A DNA stretch of 8,719 nt, from NCBI GenBank assembly GCA_024278345.1, contig JAJRTK010000188.1, positions 1 through 8,719 of the forward strand, read 5' to 3'. Made by a program: the position numbers and the translations under genes. This DNA comes from a bacterium. Lineage in GTDB: Bacteria > CSSED10-310 > JAJRTK01. This document shows positions 1-8,045 of the stretch, in pieces (the stretch's first letter is position 1; every line of letters begins with the position of its first letter). The notes below the pieces were generated by a model that was given only the letters and a program-made list of their open reading frames with translations, was not told where the DNA came from and searched no databases.

Positions 1-202
1 CATCAAGTCCACAAGATCCAGGCCGACAAGCCGACTCCCAATACAAGGCCACCGGTGAGAGTGCCGCCTCGGCCTGGATCTTGTGGACTTGATGCCCGGG
101 CTCGCCCAGGCTTCCCGGGTCATTGATGGGCCTGGGCGGCACTCTCACCGGTGGCCTTGTATTGGGAGTCGGCTTGTCGGCCTGGATCTTGTGGACTTGA
201 TG
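1..202. repeat. 68-bp perfect inverted repeat at the window edge
   Basis: Bases 1-68 are the exact reverse complement of bases 135-202, separated by a 66-bp spacer (69-134). Symmetry stops at the 69/134 pair. The outer end cannot be judged because the left arm begins at base 1 and may continue outside the window. Both arms lie inside the repeat-protein frame, so the left arm is read as antisense of the repeat. It may be a real inversion-duplication or an assembly fold-back at a contig end. Confidence 0.95.
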
Positions 203-775
203 CCCGGGCTCGCCCAGGCTTCCCGGGTCATTGATGGGCCGAGGCTGGACTTTCACCGGCGGCAGCCTGTTGGGGGGAAGTGCATCTTTTCTTCCGTTCA
301 ACATCTGATGGCGTGTGACCTGCGCCTCCGCGGGCTCAAACTGCTTCAGCATTTTCATCAGATCGTCCACGAGGCTCATCATGGAATTCCGAAAGTCCTT
401 ACCGATTCCTCCGGACTGGAACACATTTTCGAGGCTCTTCCGCAGCCCCCCGAGCCGGCTTTGCCAGCCCCCTTTTTGGGGTCCTCTTGGACCGGCTATG
501 GTGGCTAAATGTCCCATGGATTGGAGGCCCTGGTTCCCTTCCATGGCCACGACATGTCCTCGACCGGCGTGGACTCTTGAAGCCGCGAAGGCGCCCCCCG
601 GTTTTGCCGTCCGGTAATCGGTTCGACCGATTTCGGGACGCTTTTCAGATCCTTTTTTTATCGACCGAGGCGGGCGTTGCTGAGCGATTGCTGGTTTTGC
701 CATGGCTCCTGAAGCGGGGCATCCGCCTCGGAACGCACCGAGTTTGGTTGGATTCGGGTTGGCGAGCATTCGCAT
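1..775 (-). CDS. Partial Pro/Gly-rich protein with 36-residue tandem repeats, runs off the left edge
   Basis: The minus-strand frame from ATG at 775 stays open for 258 codons to the window edge, so the C-terminus is missing. I translated it by hand. The start is chosen because AAGGAG lies 7 nt upstream and the ATG overlaps the stop of a preceding small ORF (TGATG). Residues 1-110 are basic and rich in Gly, Pro, Arg and Ala, with no signal peptide. Residues 111-150 look helical (SLVDDLMKMLKQF). From residue 172 a 36-residue unit repeats: PPV[KR]V[QP]P, then RP, then INDPGSLGEPGHQVHKIQA (181-199 and 217-235). The two units differ at DNA level in their first part mostly by synonymous or conservative changes (K/R), which argues for a real protein. 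After residue 236 the frame enters an inverted copy of its own DNA, so residues 237-258 are probably not native. I do not recognise a family. It lies 104 bp downstream of the oxygenase-like gene and is probably in its operon. Confidence 0.7.
   Translation of the reverse strand, partial: MRMLANPNPTKLGAFRGGCPASGAMAKPAIAQQRPPRSIKKGSEKRPEIGRTDYRTAKPGGAFAASRVHAGRGHVVAMEGNQGLQSMGHLATIAGPRGPQKGGWQSRLGGLRKSLENVFQSGGIGKDFRNSMMSLVDDLMKMLKQFEPAEAQVTRHQMLNGRKDALPPNRLPPVKVQPRPINDPGSLGEPGHQVHKIQADKPTPNTRPPVRVPPRPINDPGSLGEPGHQVHKIQAEAALSPVALYWESACRPGSCGLD
69..240. repeat. 64-bp perfect direct repeat with 108-bp period
   Basis: Bases 69-132 and 177-240 are identical and start 108 bp apart, a multiple of three. 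On the minus strand they encode the shared core INDPGSLGEPGHQVHKIQ of the 36-residue repeat. The flanking 20 or so bases of each unit (133-153 and 241-261) are diverged. The core has therefore been homogenised or recently duplicated, while the linker has drifted. Confidence 0.95.
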
Positions 776-852
776 CAGTTTTCTCCTTGGGGGTAGCTGT
801 TTTCGTTCTCTAAGGGGGCGTTGCTATTCGCGACAAGCTCCATCTGCTTCAT
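775..852 (-). CDS. Possible 25-codon ORF coupled to the downstream repeat protein
   Basis: ATG at 852-850 opens a 25-codon frame starting MKQMELVANS and ending SYPQGEN. Its TGA (777-775) shares the A with the ATG of the next gene, giving TGATG. A possible Shine-Dalgarno AGGAAG ends about 9 nt upstream. It begins 27 nt after the stop of the oxygenase-like gene. The peptide is polar, rich in Asn and Glu, and has no membrane segment. It could be a small peptide substrate, a translational-coupling leader, or chance, since the AAGGAG of the next gene lies inside it. Codon statistics are useless at this length. Confidence 0.35.
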   Translation of the reverse strand: MKQMELVANSNAPLENENSYPQGEN

Positions 853-879
853 TATCGGCAACTTCCTAGGATTTGGTGC

Positions 880-1689
880 CTACCGATGATAAGAAACGGT
901 GATGACGCGGAAGCGTTCGGCTTTGTGCATCCCGATGAATGGGTTGACGCCAAGGAATACTCCACCAGGATAATAGAGAAACATTCCATTGAAGTCTGGG
1001 TGAACAGAAACCGTGGGGCCACAGGTCCGGGAGTTGCCGAAATAGAGGCCGCCGCCTAGCTCCGGATGCCAGACCCGCGTCAAGAAATAGAAGACGACCA
1101 GTCTCGCCGTGGCCCCATGGCATTCTTCGAAGGGCAGTTCCCCCGGCGGTACGCTCCGGACCAGAATCTGGGGGTGACAGATGCCGTGATATTGGAGCCC
1201 AACGAGCCAGAAGTGAAACTGGGCCGCACCATCGCTGGCAAGCCATCCAAGGAAACCCTCCAATGCTCTGGCTGAGTAGTTTATCCCTCTCGCCCCTGCC
1301 ATTGCCTCGCCTTGGCTAGAAAGGGGCTCCATGTCCAGTTCTTCCAGGGCTCGCTCGATGCTATCGGCTACTTCAGAGTGGAGGGGCTTGTCAATATAGG
1401 CGTGAGGGAAGGGTGAAGCCTGTGCGTAAGCCTCTCGGGCTATGGTGCATAGCTTGAGCTCCAGCAGGCTGGGAATCAGGAAGGGCGATGCGCAGGAATA
1501 CGCATCCGGCGGCAACGGGGAGATCGCCTCGGGCCACAGGGAGGAAGGCTGCGACTCAGCGTTTTCGCCTCCGGAGCCGTACCATTCGTTTCCCAAGTAG
1601 CTCCGACCCAAGTCAGGGATGAAAAAACCCGACGCTCTTTCAGGCTCGTGAGACAAGGAAATCGGCAAGTCTTCGGAGTACAACTCCAT
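880..1689 (-). CDS. 2OG-Fe(II) oxygenase-fold protein with apparently lost iron ligands
   Basis: 269 residues from the ATG at 1689, chosen because GAGGA lies about 8 nt upstream; an earlier ATG at 1746 lacks a ribosome site. Residues about 93-269 resemble the prolyl-hydroxylase-like double-stranded beta-helix. SPFPHAYIDKPL is the usual entry motif (PFPHxxID). ARLVVFYFLTRVWHPELGGGLYF (about 195-217) matches the R-l-v-f-Y-L-t-x-W-x-p-x-x-G-G-x-L strand pair. The C-terminal ERFRVITVSYHR matches the strand carrying the 2OG-binding Arg. Where the HxD motif is expected the sequence reads ECH (189-191), and where the distal His is expected it reads FLGVNP (Leu246). So none of the three iron ligands is evident, and it may be a pseudoenzyme or binding protein. 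The first 90 residues match nothing I know. It overlaps the upstream ATP-grasp gene by 50 bp, implying coupled translation. Fold assignment is by motif reading only. Confidence 0.85.
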   Translation of the reverse strand: MELYSEDLPISLSHEPERASGFFIPDLGRSYLGNEWYGSGGENAESQPSSLWPEAISPLPPDAYSCASPFLIPSLLELKLCTIAREAYAQASPFPHAYIDKPLHSEVADSIERALEELDMEPLSSQGEAMAGARGINYSARALEGFLGWLASDGAAQFHFWLVGLQYHGICHPQILVRSVPPGELPFEECHGATARLVVFYFLTRVWHPELGGGLYFGNSRTCGPTVSVHPDFNGMFLYYPGGVFLGVNPFIGMHKAERFRVITVSYHR

Positions 1690-2578
1690 CGGTTGGGTCC
1701 TCAAAAAATGCAATGGCCGGGGTTGGATTGAATTCCAGCGTGACATAGAGGCCGTTCTGTGTTCGCCTCAGATCCACGGCAGTGAAGACAAGGTCAAGCA
1801 GCTCTGCCCCGCGAATACAAGTTTCCCATATTTCGGCCGGCAATTCTGCTGGTGAGCACTGGTCTAGCGCCGCCCGAGCATCGACGACGCCGGTCGTGGG
1901 GATCTGAAATGCGGCAACGGGTTCGCCGTTCAGTACGTAAGCCCGGAACTCGTCGCCCTGGATCTGTTCTTGAAACAGGATGGGACAGTTCGCCAGCAAC
2001 TGGAGGCGCTCCGCTGTCAAATCTCCCTCGTTCAGTAGGCTGACGGCGGCACCGCCTGCCAAAGGTTTGTAGATGATGGCGCCATGCTTGCCGGCGAACG
2101 CTCGGACCTGGGCCGGGTCGTTCGTCGCCAGTGTGTCGGGAACCGGAATCCCGTGTCGGCGCAGTAGTGAGAGTTGGAAGAGCTTCAAATAGTGGAGGTC
2201 CAGCGTCTGCACCGGATTGACGAACGTACGGCCCTGCCGGTGGAGATCTCTGAGGATCGAATAGAGAAAGGACTGGCGCTGTTGCTCCGCAACATACTGA
2301 TCCTGCCAAAGCTCGAAATTCCGGGCGTTCAGACGGTCGGGCTGGACGATGGGAAGGCCGAGATAGATCGCCTTGATGTAGAACACGCGAAGGCTGTCCA
2401 ACCGCATTCCATCAAAAGCAATCGCCTCGGGACGCCAGCTCATGGTGAGCGATTCGGGAACGCGCTCGGTCTCCACCAGGAGGGCTTGGCCGCCGGCCTT
2501 TTGGACGGCCTTGGCAACGAGTTCCGCGGCCTTGTCCACTCGAGACGCCACCACGGCAACCTTTTTTGACGCGACCAT
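1640..2578 (-). CDS. RimK/MvdD-type ATP-grasp ligase
   Basis: 312 residues from ATG at 2578, preceded by GAGAGGGG; an in-frame TTG at 2632 is less likely. ATP-grasp ligases join a carboxylate, activated as acylphosphate, to an amine or hydroxyl. Visible order: N-terminal pre-ATP-grasp Rossmann-like part (KKVAVVASRVDKAAELV); helix with Lys132 (YLKLFQLSLLRRHGIPVPDT), the usual start of the ATP-grasp fold; Lys171 in IIYKPLAGGAAVS (phosphate lysine and small-residue loop); FQEQIQGDEFRAYVLNGE (202-219), the hinge and E-x-R strand; AVDLRR (267-272); and the metal-binding LEFNP with Glu282 and Asn284. Layout and length fit RimK glutamate ligases and the microviridin-type (graspetide) ligases MvdC/MvdD. 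The substrate cannot be read from the sequence. A ribosomal S6 role is unlikely given the neighbours. It is followed by an overlapping oxygenase-like gene and a repeat-protein gene, so one of those products could be its substrate (inference). Confidence 0.93.
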   Translation of the reverse strand: MVASKKVAVVASRVDKAAELVAKAVQKAGGQALLVETERVPESLTMSWRPEAIAFDGMRLDSLRVFYIKAIYLGLPIVQPDRLNARNFELWQDQYVAEQQRQSFLYSILRDLHRQGRTFVNPVQTLDLHYLKLFQLSLLRRHGIPVPDTLATNDPAQVRAFAGKHGAIIYKPLAGGAAVSLLNEGDLTAERLQLLANCPILFQEQIQGDEFRAYVLNGEPVAAFQIPTTGVVDARAALDQCSPAELPAEIWETCIRGAELLDLVFTAVDLRRTQNGLYVTLEFNPTPAIAFFEDPTDGVVLRRLADFLVSRA

Positions 2579-2681
2579 GGGCCCCTCTCTGAAGGTTGGA
2601 CCTCCACCGAACCTTGCGCAGCGAGCCGTCAACCCGTAAATGCCGCTAACCTCGATGGCTGCGTGGCGACTGGCCTACTTG

Positions 2682-3660: not shown

Positions 3661-3929
3661 TGGGGAATCTCCTTGATGCACAGGTGCGCTTTGGGTATCG
3701 GGGTTGACCGGGGATCGACGCAGTGCATGGGATTGCGGCGATGAGGGGCGAGCGGCGGCGGACGGACTGCCGACGACGGGAGCGGAACGCAACACAAAGT
3801 CACCAGCCCATGAACCGTTGCGGGAAAAAGGTTCGGCTGGCATCCGTTACCAACAGTTGTCACTGCCTGGCAAGAATGCAGGGAACCGTTTGGTCGCACA
3901 AGCGTGAGAATCCTTGTCGGGGACTCATC

Positions 3930-5549
3930 ATGGATCAAGACGGAACTGTATCATCCGGGGAGAGCGACGCATTGGACAACAGAAAGCTCCTTTCCCTTGT
4001 GAAGAAACTTGTGCGCGGCGGAACGCTGAAGGAAAGAACCGAGGCGGCGGCTGCATTGGGCGGCCTTGGGTGGACTCCGCTGACCCCGCGTGAGGAAGCC
4101 GCCTATCTGGTGGCAATGGGAGAGTGGCAAAAGGCCATCCGCCTTGGCTGGTACGCGGCTCAGGAGCTCCGCAAGCTTCTGGGCGAGCAATCCTCGGAGC
4201 TGCGTAGGAAAGCAGTCAAGACACTGGGCAAGATAGGAGACCGTACGGCCACCAGATCTCTGGCCGGAGCCCTGAAGGACCCCAATCGGGCGATCCGCAT
4301 TATGGCTGCGGAGATTCTGGGAAAGCGCGGTCACCTAGAGGCGGTGCAACCTCTGGCCGAAGCCATGAGCACGGAGACGGGCCGGCTGTACAGCGATCTG
4401 CGGCGCCAGATGAGCAAAATCCTGGAGAGCATCGAGGTTCCGCGGGAAGTCCTCGAAGAGGTTCGCTCCATGGCCCCGGCCTTCATCTCGGATCAGATGG
4501 CGGATCAGGGACGGTGGAATACGGGGCTTCACCATTCGGCGAGCGTTGCTCTGATGCGCCTATGTCCAGAGCTCCGCGGTCTTGCGGCGCCCCAGCTTTC
4601 GGCGCTATTTGCGCTGCGCCCGGAGTGGGCTCATGGTCTGCCCGCCAAGGAAAAGCTCCAAGAGCTGGCGGAGAGTGTGCGCTGGCTGCCGCCCATCGGT
4701 GGCAAGATTCCTCTTGTGATTGAGGGGTTGCCGCTCTTCGAGCTTCCGCCATCCTGGACGGCGGAAGAGCAGACGCTTCTCCTTGTTGAGCTTCGCCGAG
4801 AGGGATTCTTGGGAACGATTGGGTATGTACATCAGCTCACAATCCAAGGACGCCTCCCGGATCCGTTCAAAGCGGTGGCTCTTGCGCTTATTCTTGCTAG
4901 CCCCTACGACCACGACTGGCAAGAGCCCTTCTTCGAGGCTCCGTGGGGCAAGATCGCGCCCCTCATTCACGACGGAGGCTCACCGAATGTCTCCATCAAC
5001 CCGGCATGGCATTCCATGAAAGGTCGCACCGACTTTTTGCAGCGGCTGGCTCAGGTGCATCAGTGCAACCTGGAAACCCTGGAATCCATGAAGGATGAGG
5101 AGCAGCTAGCGGTTTTTTCCCACGACGTAGAGCTCTTGGAGCGTTATGATCGGGAAAAAGCGGAGCGTTCCCGGCTCCTTCTGGAAACGCGGGCTTATCA
5201 GCGGCTTGCTCTGGCCCTCCACTCGGACCTTGGCACGATGCCCGCGGACATGCCGCCACCGCTGAGATGGAGGCTCGTCGCCAGATGGAAGCTCTTCACG
5301 GAGCATTTCACCAGGCTTCTTGCCAGCATCGGTGCCGCCAGTGCATTACGCACGCCTTGGTTCACCAACAGTCCGCGGCAAATCGAGTGGCTCGAAGAGC
5401 GGCATGAAGCTCCGTGGCCTGCCATCTGCCGCGATCTCATCAAGCTGGAAGAGCTCCGAACGCGGCACCCAGAAATTCGAATCGCCGCAATTCACCTTCT
5501 GGCCCAAGCGACGGAATGGGTTGATCAAGAGTTGGGCCTGGCCCGTTGA
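3930..5549 (+). CDS. HEAT-repeat protein of unknown function
   Basis: 539 residues from ATG at 3930, with CGGGGA about 8 nt upstream. The frame is open 69 codons further back, but that stretch is Arg/Cys-rich and unlike the rest. Residues about 50-155 hold HEAT/PBS-lyase-like helical repeats: WTPLTPREEAAYLVAMGEWQ, then helices ending LRKLL, then ELRRKAVKTLGKIGDRTATR and LAGALKDPNRAIRIMAAEIL. Such repeats form curved scaffolds for protein binding. The remaining 380 residues are mostly charged helices with no domain I recognise, no signal peptide and no membrane segment, so it is probably cytoplasmic. It is divergent from nfo across 269 bp (3661-3929), in which I found no convincing promoter. 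Its last 25 bp overlap the end of convergent lpxB. No function can be inferred beyond a scaffold-like fold. Confidence 0.9.
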   Translation: MDQDGTVSSGESDALDNRKLLSLVKKLVRGGTLKERTEAAAALGGLGWTPLTPREEAAYLVAMGEWQKAIRLGWYAAQELRKLLGEQSSELRRKAVKTLGKIGDRTATRSLAGALKDPNRAIRIMAAEILGKRGHLEAVQPLAEAMSTETGRLYSDLRRQMSKILESIEVPREVLEEVRSMAPAFISDQMADQGRWNTGLHHSASVALMRLCPELRGLAAPQLSALFALRPEWAHGLPAKEKLQELAESVRWLPPIGGKIPLVIEGLPLFELPPSWTAEEQTLLLVELRREGFLGTIGYVHQLTIQGRLPDPFKAVALALILASPYDHDWQEPFFEAPWGKIAPLIHDGGSPNVSINPAWHSMKGRTDFLQRLAQVHQCNLETLESMKDEEQLAVFSHDVELLERYDREKAERSRLLLETRAYQRLALALHSDLGTMPADMPPPLRWRLVARWKLFTEHFTRLLASIGAASALRTPWFTNSPRQIEWLEERHEAPWPAICRDLIKLEELRTRHPEIRIAAIHLLAQATEWVDQELGLAR

Positions 5550-6770: not shown

Positions 6771-7229
6771 CTATTCCTTGACCCGCTTCACCAAGAGCGT
6801 GGCGCGGTAGTCCGCTGGATTGAGCGGTCGCGCCAAGAGCGCTGGATGCGGCTCCAAATCCACGAGTTCCACGGTGTAATCGCCTATCCTCCGCGGCTTT
6901 TTGTCTTGCGTTGACAACTCCAACGCTCGCGCCAAACTTGTAACATCCGACACCTGAAGCTGGATCGTCGCTTCTCCAGGCCAAACACAGGCGGCCCCTT
7001 CCGGGCACCTGGACTCCGAAAGCAGCTTGACGAATTCGATGGCCAATCCGTCAGGCTTGACTGAGGCCTGCTGGCCAAACCCCAAGATAAATGGCTGTTC
7101 CAATGTTACCGACACGGCTGCTCCCTGTCCCTCGGTAGGTTTTGGATCCGCCAGCCCTGAACAACTCGCCGCCAATGCCGAGCAAGACAAGAGCAACGCG
7201 ACCCCTACTCGTTCCATGATGCTTTTCAT
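6771..7229 (-). CDS. Small lipoprotein with RCP-x4-C-x-W-x-G motif
   Basis: 152 residues. The start is ATG at 7229, chosen because GGAGGAG lies about 6 nt upstream and it gives a clean lipoprotein signal: MKSIMERVG, hydrophobic VALLLSCSALA, then lipobox AASC with Cys23 as the lipidated residue. The mature part is about 130 residues and probably beta-rich. It contains SRCPEGAACVWPGEATIQLQV (72-92), a pattern known to me from small exported bacterial proteins of unknown function; Cys75 and Cys81 may form a disulfide. It is expected to sit in the outer or inner membrane facing the periplasm. It is followed after 58 bp by lpxB on the same strand. The frame is open 117 codons upstream of this start, but that extension would bury the signal peptide. 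Confidence 0.88.
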   Translation of the reverse strand: MKSIMERVGVALLLSCSALAASCSGLADPKPTEGQGAAVSVTLEQPFILGFGQQASVKPDGLAIEFVKLLSESRCPEGAACVWPGEATIQLQVSDVTSLARALELSTQDKKPRRIGDYTVELVDLEPHPALLARPLNPADYRATLLVKRVKE

Positions 7230-7649
7230 ACCTCTCCTCCGGCTGCAATCCCGTTGACGAAAGCAACCCCCTCCGCCCCGCTCCATGGATGCTCTCAGAA
7301 GCTCCGCCCAACGGGGGTTCCTTGAAACTCCGCCAAAACTGACGACCCCGGGAACCCCGCCTCTTCCCACTCTCCCAGTAGCCATCAAGACTCCCATCCC
7401 TAGCTCACACACCTCCAGACGCATTCTGTTCCCCACGCCGCCTCCGGCGGGTGGGAACGACTCTCGCGAAGGTATCATGCAGACTGATCGGTGGTGGTCG
7501 GCTTCACCGGAGCAAAATCTGGGCATCCAGTCAAAGCGGGACAGAACAAGAATAGGAAAGGGATTGGTTCCCCGCGGCAACCGCTGCTCGCCATTGTCGC
7601 CGCTTTCGATCCACTGCCCTAAGGCCGGAACGCCGGTGGAAACAATGGA
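7230..7649. other. Gene-poor stretch upstream of the lipoprotein gene
   Basis: I see no supportable gene here. The minus strand contains the lipoprotein's ribosome site (7234-7241) and an open in-frame extension back to 7580. I found no convincing -35/-10 pair. The stretch contains the hairpin at 7432-7455, and its right end carries the left copies of the short repeats at 7616-7655. Confidence 0.6.
7432..7455. repeat. Bulged 10-bp-stem hairpin
   Basis: CCCAC, a bulged G, CCGCC, loop TCC, then GGCGG and GTGGG form a 10-bp stem with one bulge and a 3-nt loop. There is no T-run on either strand, so a standard intrinsic terminator is not supported. The triloop TCC recurs in two hairpins at 8450-8492. 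Confidence 0.6.
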
Positions 7650-8045
7650 TCAGCCTCCGGGGTATGGCATCAGGAGCGGGTAAGTCGGCCCGCAGCGACG
7701 AAACCCTACTGTTGGTGCTGAGCACGGGGCGCCATTTCCAAAGGTCGGCCCGCAGCGACGAAACCCTACTGTTGGTGTTGAGCACGGGGCGCCATTTCCA
7801 AAGATCTCCTGAATCTCGTGCGCTTCCAGAACCGGCCGCACCCACTCCTTCACTTCCTCGCTCCCGCCCTTCCGAACGACCGACGCCACACTACGGGGAA
7901 CTTCTCCGAACTTCGCCTCCAGCAACTCCAAGAGCAACTCTCGTTGCCCCGTCAGAACTCCTTTTTTCAGGGCCTCCTCCCGCCCCTTCTCCAGGCCCTC
8001 CTCCACCCACTCCCGAGTCCATTCTCGGACTCGTTCCGCCAGCAT
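7650..8045 (-). pseudogene. Truncated C-terminal end of an Rpn-type nuclease / putative transposase gene
   Basis: The frame reads MLAERVREWTREWVEEGLEK, then a Lys/Glu-rich helix (GREEALKKGVLTGQRE), then LLLELLEAKFGEVPRSV and EVKEWVRPVLEAHEIQEIF. This is the charged-helix tail and terminal domain seen at the C-terminus of Rpn-family (recombination-promoting nuclease, PD-(D/E)XK) proteins, which are normally about 250-300 residues. The nuclease domain is missing. The coding sense extends only slightly upstream (GLEEVKT) before an in-frame TAG at 8093-8091, and no Rpn N-terminus is seen further right. At the 3' end, from about residue 82, the frame runs through two 60-bp repeat units that add 40 foreign residues, then stops at 7650. 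It is probably a non-functional remnant. Confidence 0.7.
7684..7803. repeat. 60-bp tandem repeat, two copies
   Basis: 7684-7743 and 7744-7803 are identical except at one base (C at 7718, T at 7778). On the minus strand each codes in frame for FGNGAPCS[TA]PTVGFRRCGPT, adding two 20-residue units to the Rpn remnant. The first residue of the unit (Phe) merges with the family's usual C-terminal IF, so the repeat seems to have landed near the end of the gene. Confidence 0.95.

Follow-up and report, generated by a model that had tools for sequence, protein, structure and literature searches.

A probable corallotide-type graspetide cassette with a CorC homologue that appears to have lost its iron site

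Do an ATP-grasp ligase, an oxygenase-like protein, a tiny ORF and a repeat protein that are encoded side by side form a peptide-modifying cassette and, if so, of what kind? The window, i.e. the whole stretch of 8,719 nucleotides that was analysed, is a complete contig (C110 of genome G000) from a genome of 6.1 Mb that is 88% complete and belongs to a sparsely sampled phylum, of which we compared 7 other genomes. The genes of the cassette all lie on the minus strand, in the order ligase, oxygenase-like ORF, 25-codon ORF and repeat protein (Table 1). The anatomy described in the original prediction, namely a 50 bp overlap between the first two genes, 27 nt between the stop of the oxygenase-like ORF and the 25-codon ORF, and a TGATG junction from the latter into the repeat-protein ORF, is all present in the sequence on this strand. 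The oxygenase-like ORF, which has its stop at 880, can start either at ATG 1746 or at ATG 1689, and it is the second start that gives the overlap of 50 bp, the first one giving 107 bp. The ATG of the repeat-protein ORF is preceded, seven bases upstream, by an AAGGAG ribosome site. Elsewhere in the window, a 608-aa HEAT-repeat protein is encoded on the plus strand between nfo and lpxB (3723-5549), for which no link to the cassette was seen, and a short ORF that weakly resembles DUF4351/Rpn-type proteins carries at its 3' end, at positions 7683-7802, a pair of almost identical direct repeats of 60 bp.

Table 1. Positions in the window of the cassette genes and of the sites discussed in the text
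Feature	Positions	Strand	Basis
Putative graspetide synthetase (CorB orthologue), ATP-grasp, 312 aa, ATG 2579 to stop 1640	1640..2579	-	family match, identity, motifs
Putative CorC homologue without iron ligands (pseudo-2OG-oxygenase)	880..1746	-	profile and blastp
E208-C-H210, where the homologues have the HxD motif	1117..1125	-	alignment with 16 homologues, all HxD
Leu265, where the homologues have the distal iron-binding His	952..954	-	alignment with homologues
Arg278, position of the 2-oxoglutarate-binding arginine, kept	913..915	-	alignment with homologues
25-codon ORF MKQMELVANSNAPLENENSYPQGEN, ATG 852, stop 775-777	775..852	-	ORF list
Likely precursor (CorA-like) gene, ATG 775, runs off the contig	1..775	-	ORF, repeats, continuation on C104
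First K-x-x-x-D core motif, KIQAD followed by KP	176..190	-	comparison with homologous precursors
Second core motif, KIQA, then interrupted at the inverted-repeat junction	68..82	-	translation

The arrangement, which the original prediction did not recognise, is a known one: it corresponds to that of the corallotide pathway, whose synthetase is closely related to the ligase of the window. This pathway was described in March 2026 from Corallococcus exercitus as graspetide group 15, and it comprises CorA, a long precursor with repeated KxxxD motifs; CorB, a TIGR04187 synthetase; CorC, a divergent 2OG-Fe(II) oxygenase; and CorD, a beta-lactamase-fold protein (PMC13097080). CorB links the Lys to the Asp of each motif as an isopeptide and CorC hydroxylates the Lys (5-hydroxylation); in addition, CorC binds, activates and copurifies with CorB, although it is not strictly essential, the C. 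exercitus CorB being weakly active without it (PMC13097080). Group 15 is given as restricted to Corallococcus, with the conserved order A-B-C-D (PMC13097080). Searching with a DNA pattern derived from the CorA peptide as published, we reached the C. exercitus locus and obtained three other matches (L012, L014 and L015).

The best NCBIfam match of the ligase is TIGR04187, with 99.9 bits, which is under the curated cut-off of 350 for this family, and the protein also matches Pfam RimK. Its best match in the PDB (E 1e-41) is 7drm, a graspetide macrocyclase entry that we take to be the plesiocin synthetase PsnB, and its ATP-grasp and DFR-type motifs (YKPLAGG, GDEFRAYVL and EFNPTPA) are intact. Over its full length the ligase is 57-61% identical to the synthetases of Corallococcus and near relatives, and it shares 28-38% identity with most other graspetide-like synthetases of the bacterial family of Corallococcus. 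With a Corallococcus synthetase it scores 402 bits, which, converted by our own arithmetic to an EFI-style alignment score, is about 116, and because this exceeds 70, the cut-off that defines graspetide groups (PMC13097080), the ligase falls within group 15 by similarity. The graspetide-type activity originally predicted for the ligase thus agrees with its best family, its closest structure and its identity to CorB, of which it appears to be an orthologue. A second copy of the cassette was not found in the 7 other genomes of the phylum, where the only ATP-grasp match had 27% identity over part of the protein.

As regards the oxygenase-like protein, a profile constructed from 16 CorC homologues, the window protein being excluded, matches it with 87 bits (E 8e-25, Z=10,000), and no shuffled copy was reported in the same search. 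By blastp it is 25-28% identical to CorC homologues (E 1e-9 to 4e-19). It has no Pfam or NCBIfam match, PF13640 included, whereas a Corallococcus CorC does match PF13640; a single-query scan with the window protein gave no match among genome contigs and none on plasmids, and no other CorC-like gene was found in this 88% complete genome. We therefore regard the "oxygenase-fold" protein as a divergent homologue of CorC, and this homology would imply a double-stranded beta-helix fold; the AlphaFold model, computed from the single sequence without an alignment, has a pLDDT of 32. Candidate starts of CorC genes located 50-62 bp before the synthetase stop are also present in Corallococcus and in other myxobacterial homologues, and since similar overlaps recur there, the overlap between the synthetase and CorC genes is more than chance.

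The iron triad HxD...H is present in 16 of the 16 other CorC homologues, and at the aligned positions the window protein has ExH...L. All three iron ligands are thus lost, which bears out the view that this relative of 2OG oxygenases is apparently inactive. The HHH..Y segment, found in almost all homologues, is gone as well, and Arg278 aligns with an invariant Arg of the CorC homologues, at a position that presumably binds the carboxylate of 2-oxoglutarate in the oxygenase fold. The divergence is unevenly distributed along the protein. For the N-terminal motif together with the helical region its mean identity to the homologues is 41%, the other homologues having 31-52%, versus 24% in the catalytic barrel, where the other homologues have 43-57%; the resulting ratio of 0.58 (bootstrap 0.39-0.87) compares with ratios of 1.09-1.36 for the other homologues. 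Likewise, homologue pairs whose synthetases are 51-56% identical have CorC proteins that are 35-42% identical, while the window and its nearest relatives share 57-60% identity in the synthetase and only 27-30% in the CorC-like protein, and the branch leading to the window is 4.4 long in the C tree versus 0.5 in the synthetase tree. The barrel has therefore diverged about twice as much as expected, and the non-catalytic segments are normally conserved. These data argue strongly that the decay of the CorC-like protein has been selective for its catalytic barrel, an argument that is not conclusive because the conserved and catalytic segments were picked after the alignment had been viewed and a single genome stands behind the comparison. 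Our literature search found no graspetide pseudoenzyme.

The repeat protein starts with a long leader, its first core motif being located at residue 196 and followed by repeats. Contig C104 (locus L010, positions 1-261) starts within the same repeats and contains three units before the stop, and the repeats are on no third contig of the genome; on the strength of these shared repeats we infer that C110 and C104 together make one precursor gene. Its motifs are KIQADKP in the window, three copies of KIQADQP on C104 and one that is interrupted at the contig end, a set that corresponds to the large precursor with multiple KxxxD motifs of group 15. About 200 bp at this end (positions 1-202) form an imperfect inverted repeat (83%) that is built of coding repeats and is probably an assembly end, and because of it the reading frame and the number of repeats near or below position ~70 are unreliable. 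The motifs of homologous precursors are KIVADDP, KVMMDDP, KIRSDDP, KVKMDEP, KIRADDP, KIRADEP, KFRADVP and alike, so that K-x-x-x-D-x-P is the core that they share with the window repeats, and such KxxxDxP repeats, mostly in four to nine copies, are found in the precursors of all complete homologous loci examined. No similarity to CorA leaders could be detected in the window leader, and a CorA-leader profile misses this leader, the 25-codon ORF and P0003. Because its KxxxDxP repeats match the core that is cross-linked by CorB, the repeat protein, already proposed as a partner of the ligase, is the likely substrate and precursor of the synthetase. About 470 bp past the end of the repeat gene, C104 encodes a lipoprotein-like PF00144 serine hydrolase (L010, 730-1893); it has 23% identity to CorD over 169 aa and appears to be a distant relative of CorD, not its orthologue.

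The original prediction had also proposed, as a check, that the ligase and oxygenase-like pair be sought elsewhere together with a repeat protein; in the myxobacterial loci that we examined, as in a third phylum, the synthetase, the CorC homologue and KxxxDxP repeats are indeed found together. The pair of synthetase and CorC homologue is present in other genera of the family of Corallococcus (L034-L039), elsewhere in its phylum (L051 and L052) and in a third phylum, represented by two genomes (L053 and L054). A KxxxDxP precursor accompanies the pair in all of L034-L039, L051, L052 and L054, and the contig of L053 starts just before the synthetase. In these other loci the precursor precedes the synthetase, whereas in the window it comes after the CorC homologue. 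Corallococcus loci were the only ones in which CorD was detected; none of L034-L039 showed it. On the minus strand of L052 (G245), the synthetase and the CorC-like oxygenase are joined in one ORF of 636 aa, and this natural fusion, together with the overlap of the synthetase and CorC genes in most loci, supports a physical partnership of the two proteins. Thus, the corallotide-type pathway appears to be present in at least three phylum-level lineages, not in Corallococcus alone, and the tightly coupled peptide-modifying cassette that had been predicted gains credence from this recurrence. Several particulars of these loci may be added: an ORF bearing KIRADDP lies just upstream of the fusion ORF in L052; in L051 (G242) a single CorC homologue has two distinct ORFs for CorB-like synthetases in its vicinity, and a precursor-like ORF rich in EEDGG repeats bears two KVRADDP motifs; and in L037 (G077) a second 2OG-oxygenase-like protein, weakly similar to the window protein, is encoded on the minus strand, by an ORF located around 6942-7791 in reverse-complement numbering.

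Based on this, we consider it probable that the window encodes a corallotide-type graspetide pathway in which a CorC-like pseudo-oxygenase activates the synthetase and the ring Lys is left unhydroxylated. In each K-I-Q-A-D motif of the repeat protein, the synthetase would phosphorylate the Asp and link it to the Lys located four residues before it, so that every repeat acquires a single small lactam (isopeptide) ring. The CorC-like protein would bind and activate the synthetase, in the way that CorC acts on CorB, and because it has lost its iron site, the Lys in the ring would not be hydroxylated. The ring chemistry and the activation of CorB by CorC were demonstrated in the corallotide system (PMC13097080), and the ring chemistry most likely carries over by close orthology; that the activating role has been kept and the product is unhydroxylated is the best reading of the alignment. 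The simplest guess for the cross-linked repeat protein is that it is rigid, protease-resistant and possibly self-associating.

Different roles may be envisaged for the CorC-like protein. It is rather unlikely that it is a decaying relic without function, the synthetase acting alone: the loss of the iron ligands and of the HHH..Y segment, the very long branch in the C tree and the weak activity of CorB without CorC (PMC13097080) all fit such a relic, but its frame has stayed open for 288 codons without a stop, its N-terminal motif and helical region are conserved as in active homologues, and the overlap with the synthetase gene has been kept. It is very unlikely that the protein has remained enzymatically active, through a changed metal site (E-C-H) or by acting on the ring in a new way. 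E208 and H210 could bind a metal and the Arg position for 2-oxoglutarate is retained; however, the distal His is replaced by Leu, and conservation is broadly lost throughout the barrel, the HHH..Y segment included.

Other explanations concern the substrate. If the ligase were of the RimK type and extended a protein tail by amino acids, the repeat protein being a structural bystander, the Pfam RimK match would be accounted for; this is highly improbable in view of the best family (TIGR04187), the graspetide macrocyclase entry as best structure and the 57-61% identity to CorB-type enzymes. That the real peptide substrate is encoded by the 25-codon ORF is hardly credible. This ORF sits between the oxygenase and repeat genes and has a plausible ribosome site, which is the only evidence for the part in the cassette that the original prediction gave it, but it contains no KxxxD motif, its last codons include AAGGAG, which is the ribosome site for the repeat gene, and the conserved partner in homologous loci is the repeat precursor. 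The 25-codon ORF is probably a spacer bearing the ribosome site of the next gene.

With a pseudo-oxygenase that activates the synthetase as the preferred reading, a cassette that has lost the hydroxylase site but conserved the rest would naturally separate the activating and hydroxylating roles of CorC. With some reserve, we lean towards regarding it as such a separation of function, in which a RiPP tailoring oxygenase no longer catalyses its reaction and has been retained as the subunit that activates a peptide macrocyclase, leaving the repeat protein unhydroxylated. The conserved segments, i.e. the N-terminal SGFFIPDL...G motif and the helical region, would then point to the surface that docks onto the synthetase. 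Moreover, repeat proteins stapled between Lys and Asp may be commoner than reported, because three or more phylum-level lineages have the pathway, in one case with synthetase and oxygenase fused in a single ORF.

Among known systems, plesiocin resembles the window cassette in that its synthetase PsnB (7drm) is the closest solved structure to the ligase and in the use of repeats as core units; on the other hand, it has no known CorC partner. The plesiocin core consists of hairpins of the TTxxxxEE type. Rosaritide (mir, group 21) also has a TIGR04187 synthetase that needs a partner making no known modification, but this partner, MirC, is a relative of SurA-like chaperones and not of oxygenases, and the core is short, with three macrolactones (PMC13097080). 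The likeness to corallotide comprises the orthologous synthetase, the overlapping CorC homologue and the long KxxxDxP precursor, as well as a PF00144 protein encoded downstream, on C104. The window differs from corallotide in belonging to a different phylum, in its gene order B-C-A instead of A-B-C, in its CorC homologue without iron ligands, in a leader unrelated by sequence, in its core KIQADKP/KIQADQP and in apparently having no CorD orthologue. The cassette probably works like corallotide biosynthesis and is not a new kind of system; what appears to be new with respect to corallotide is a CorC homologue with no iron site, the order of the genes and the lineage of the host.
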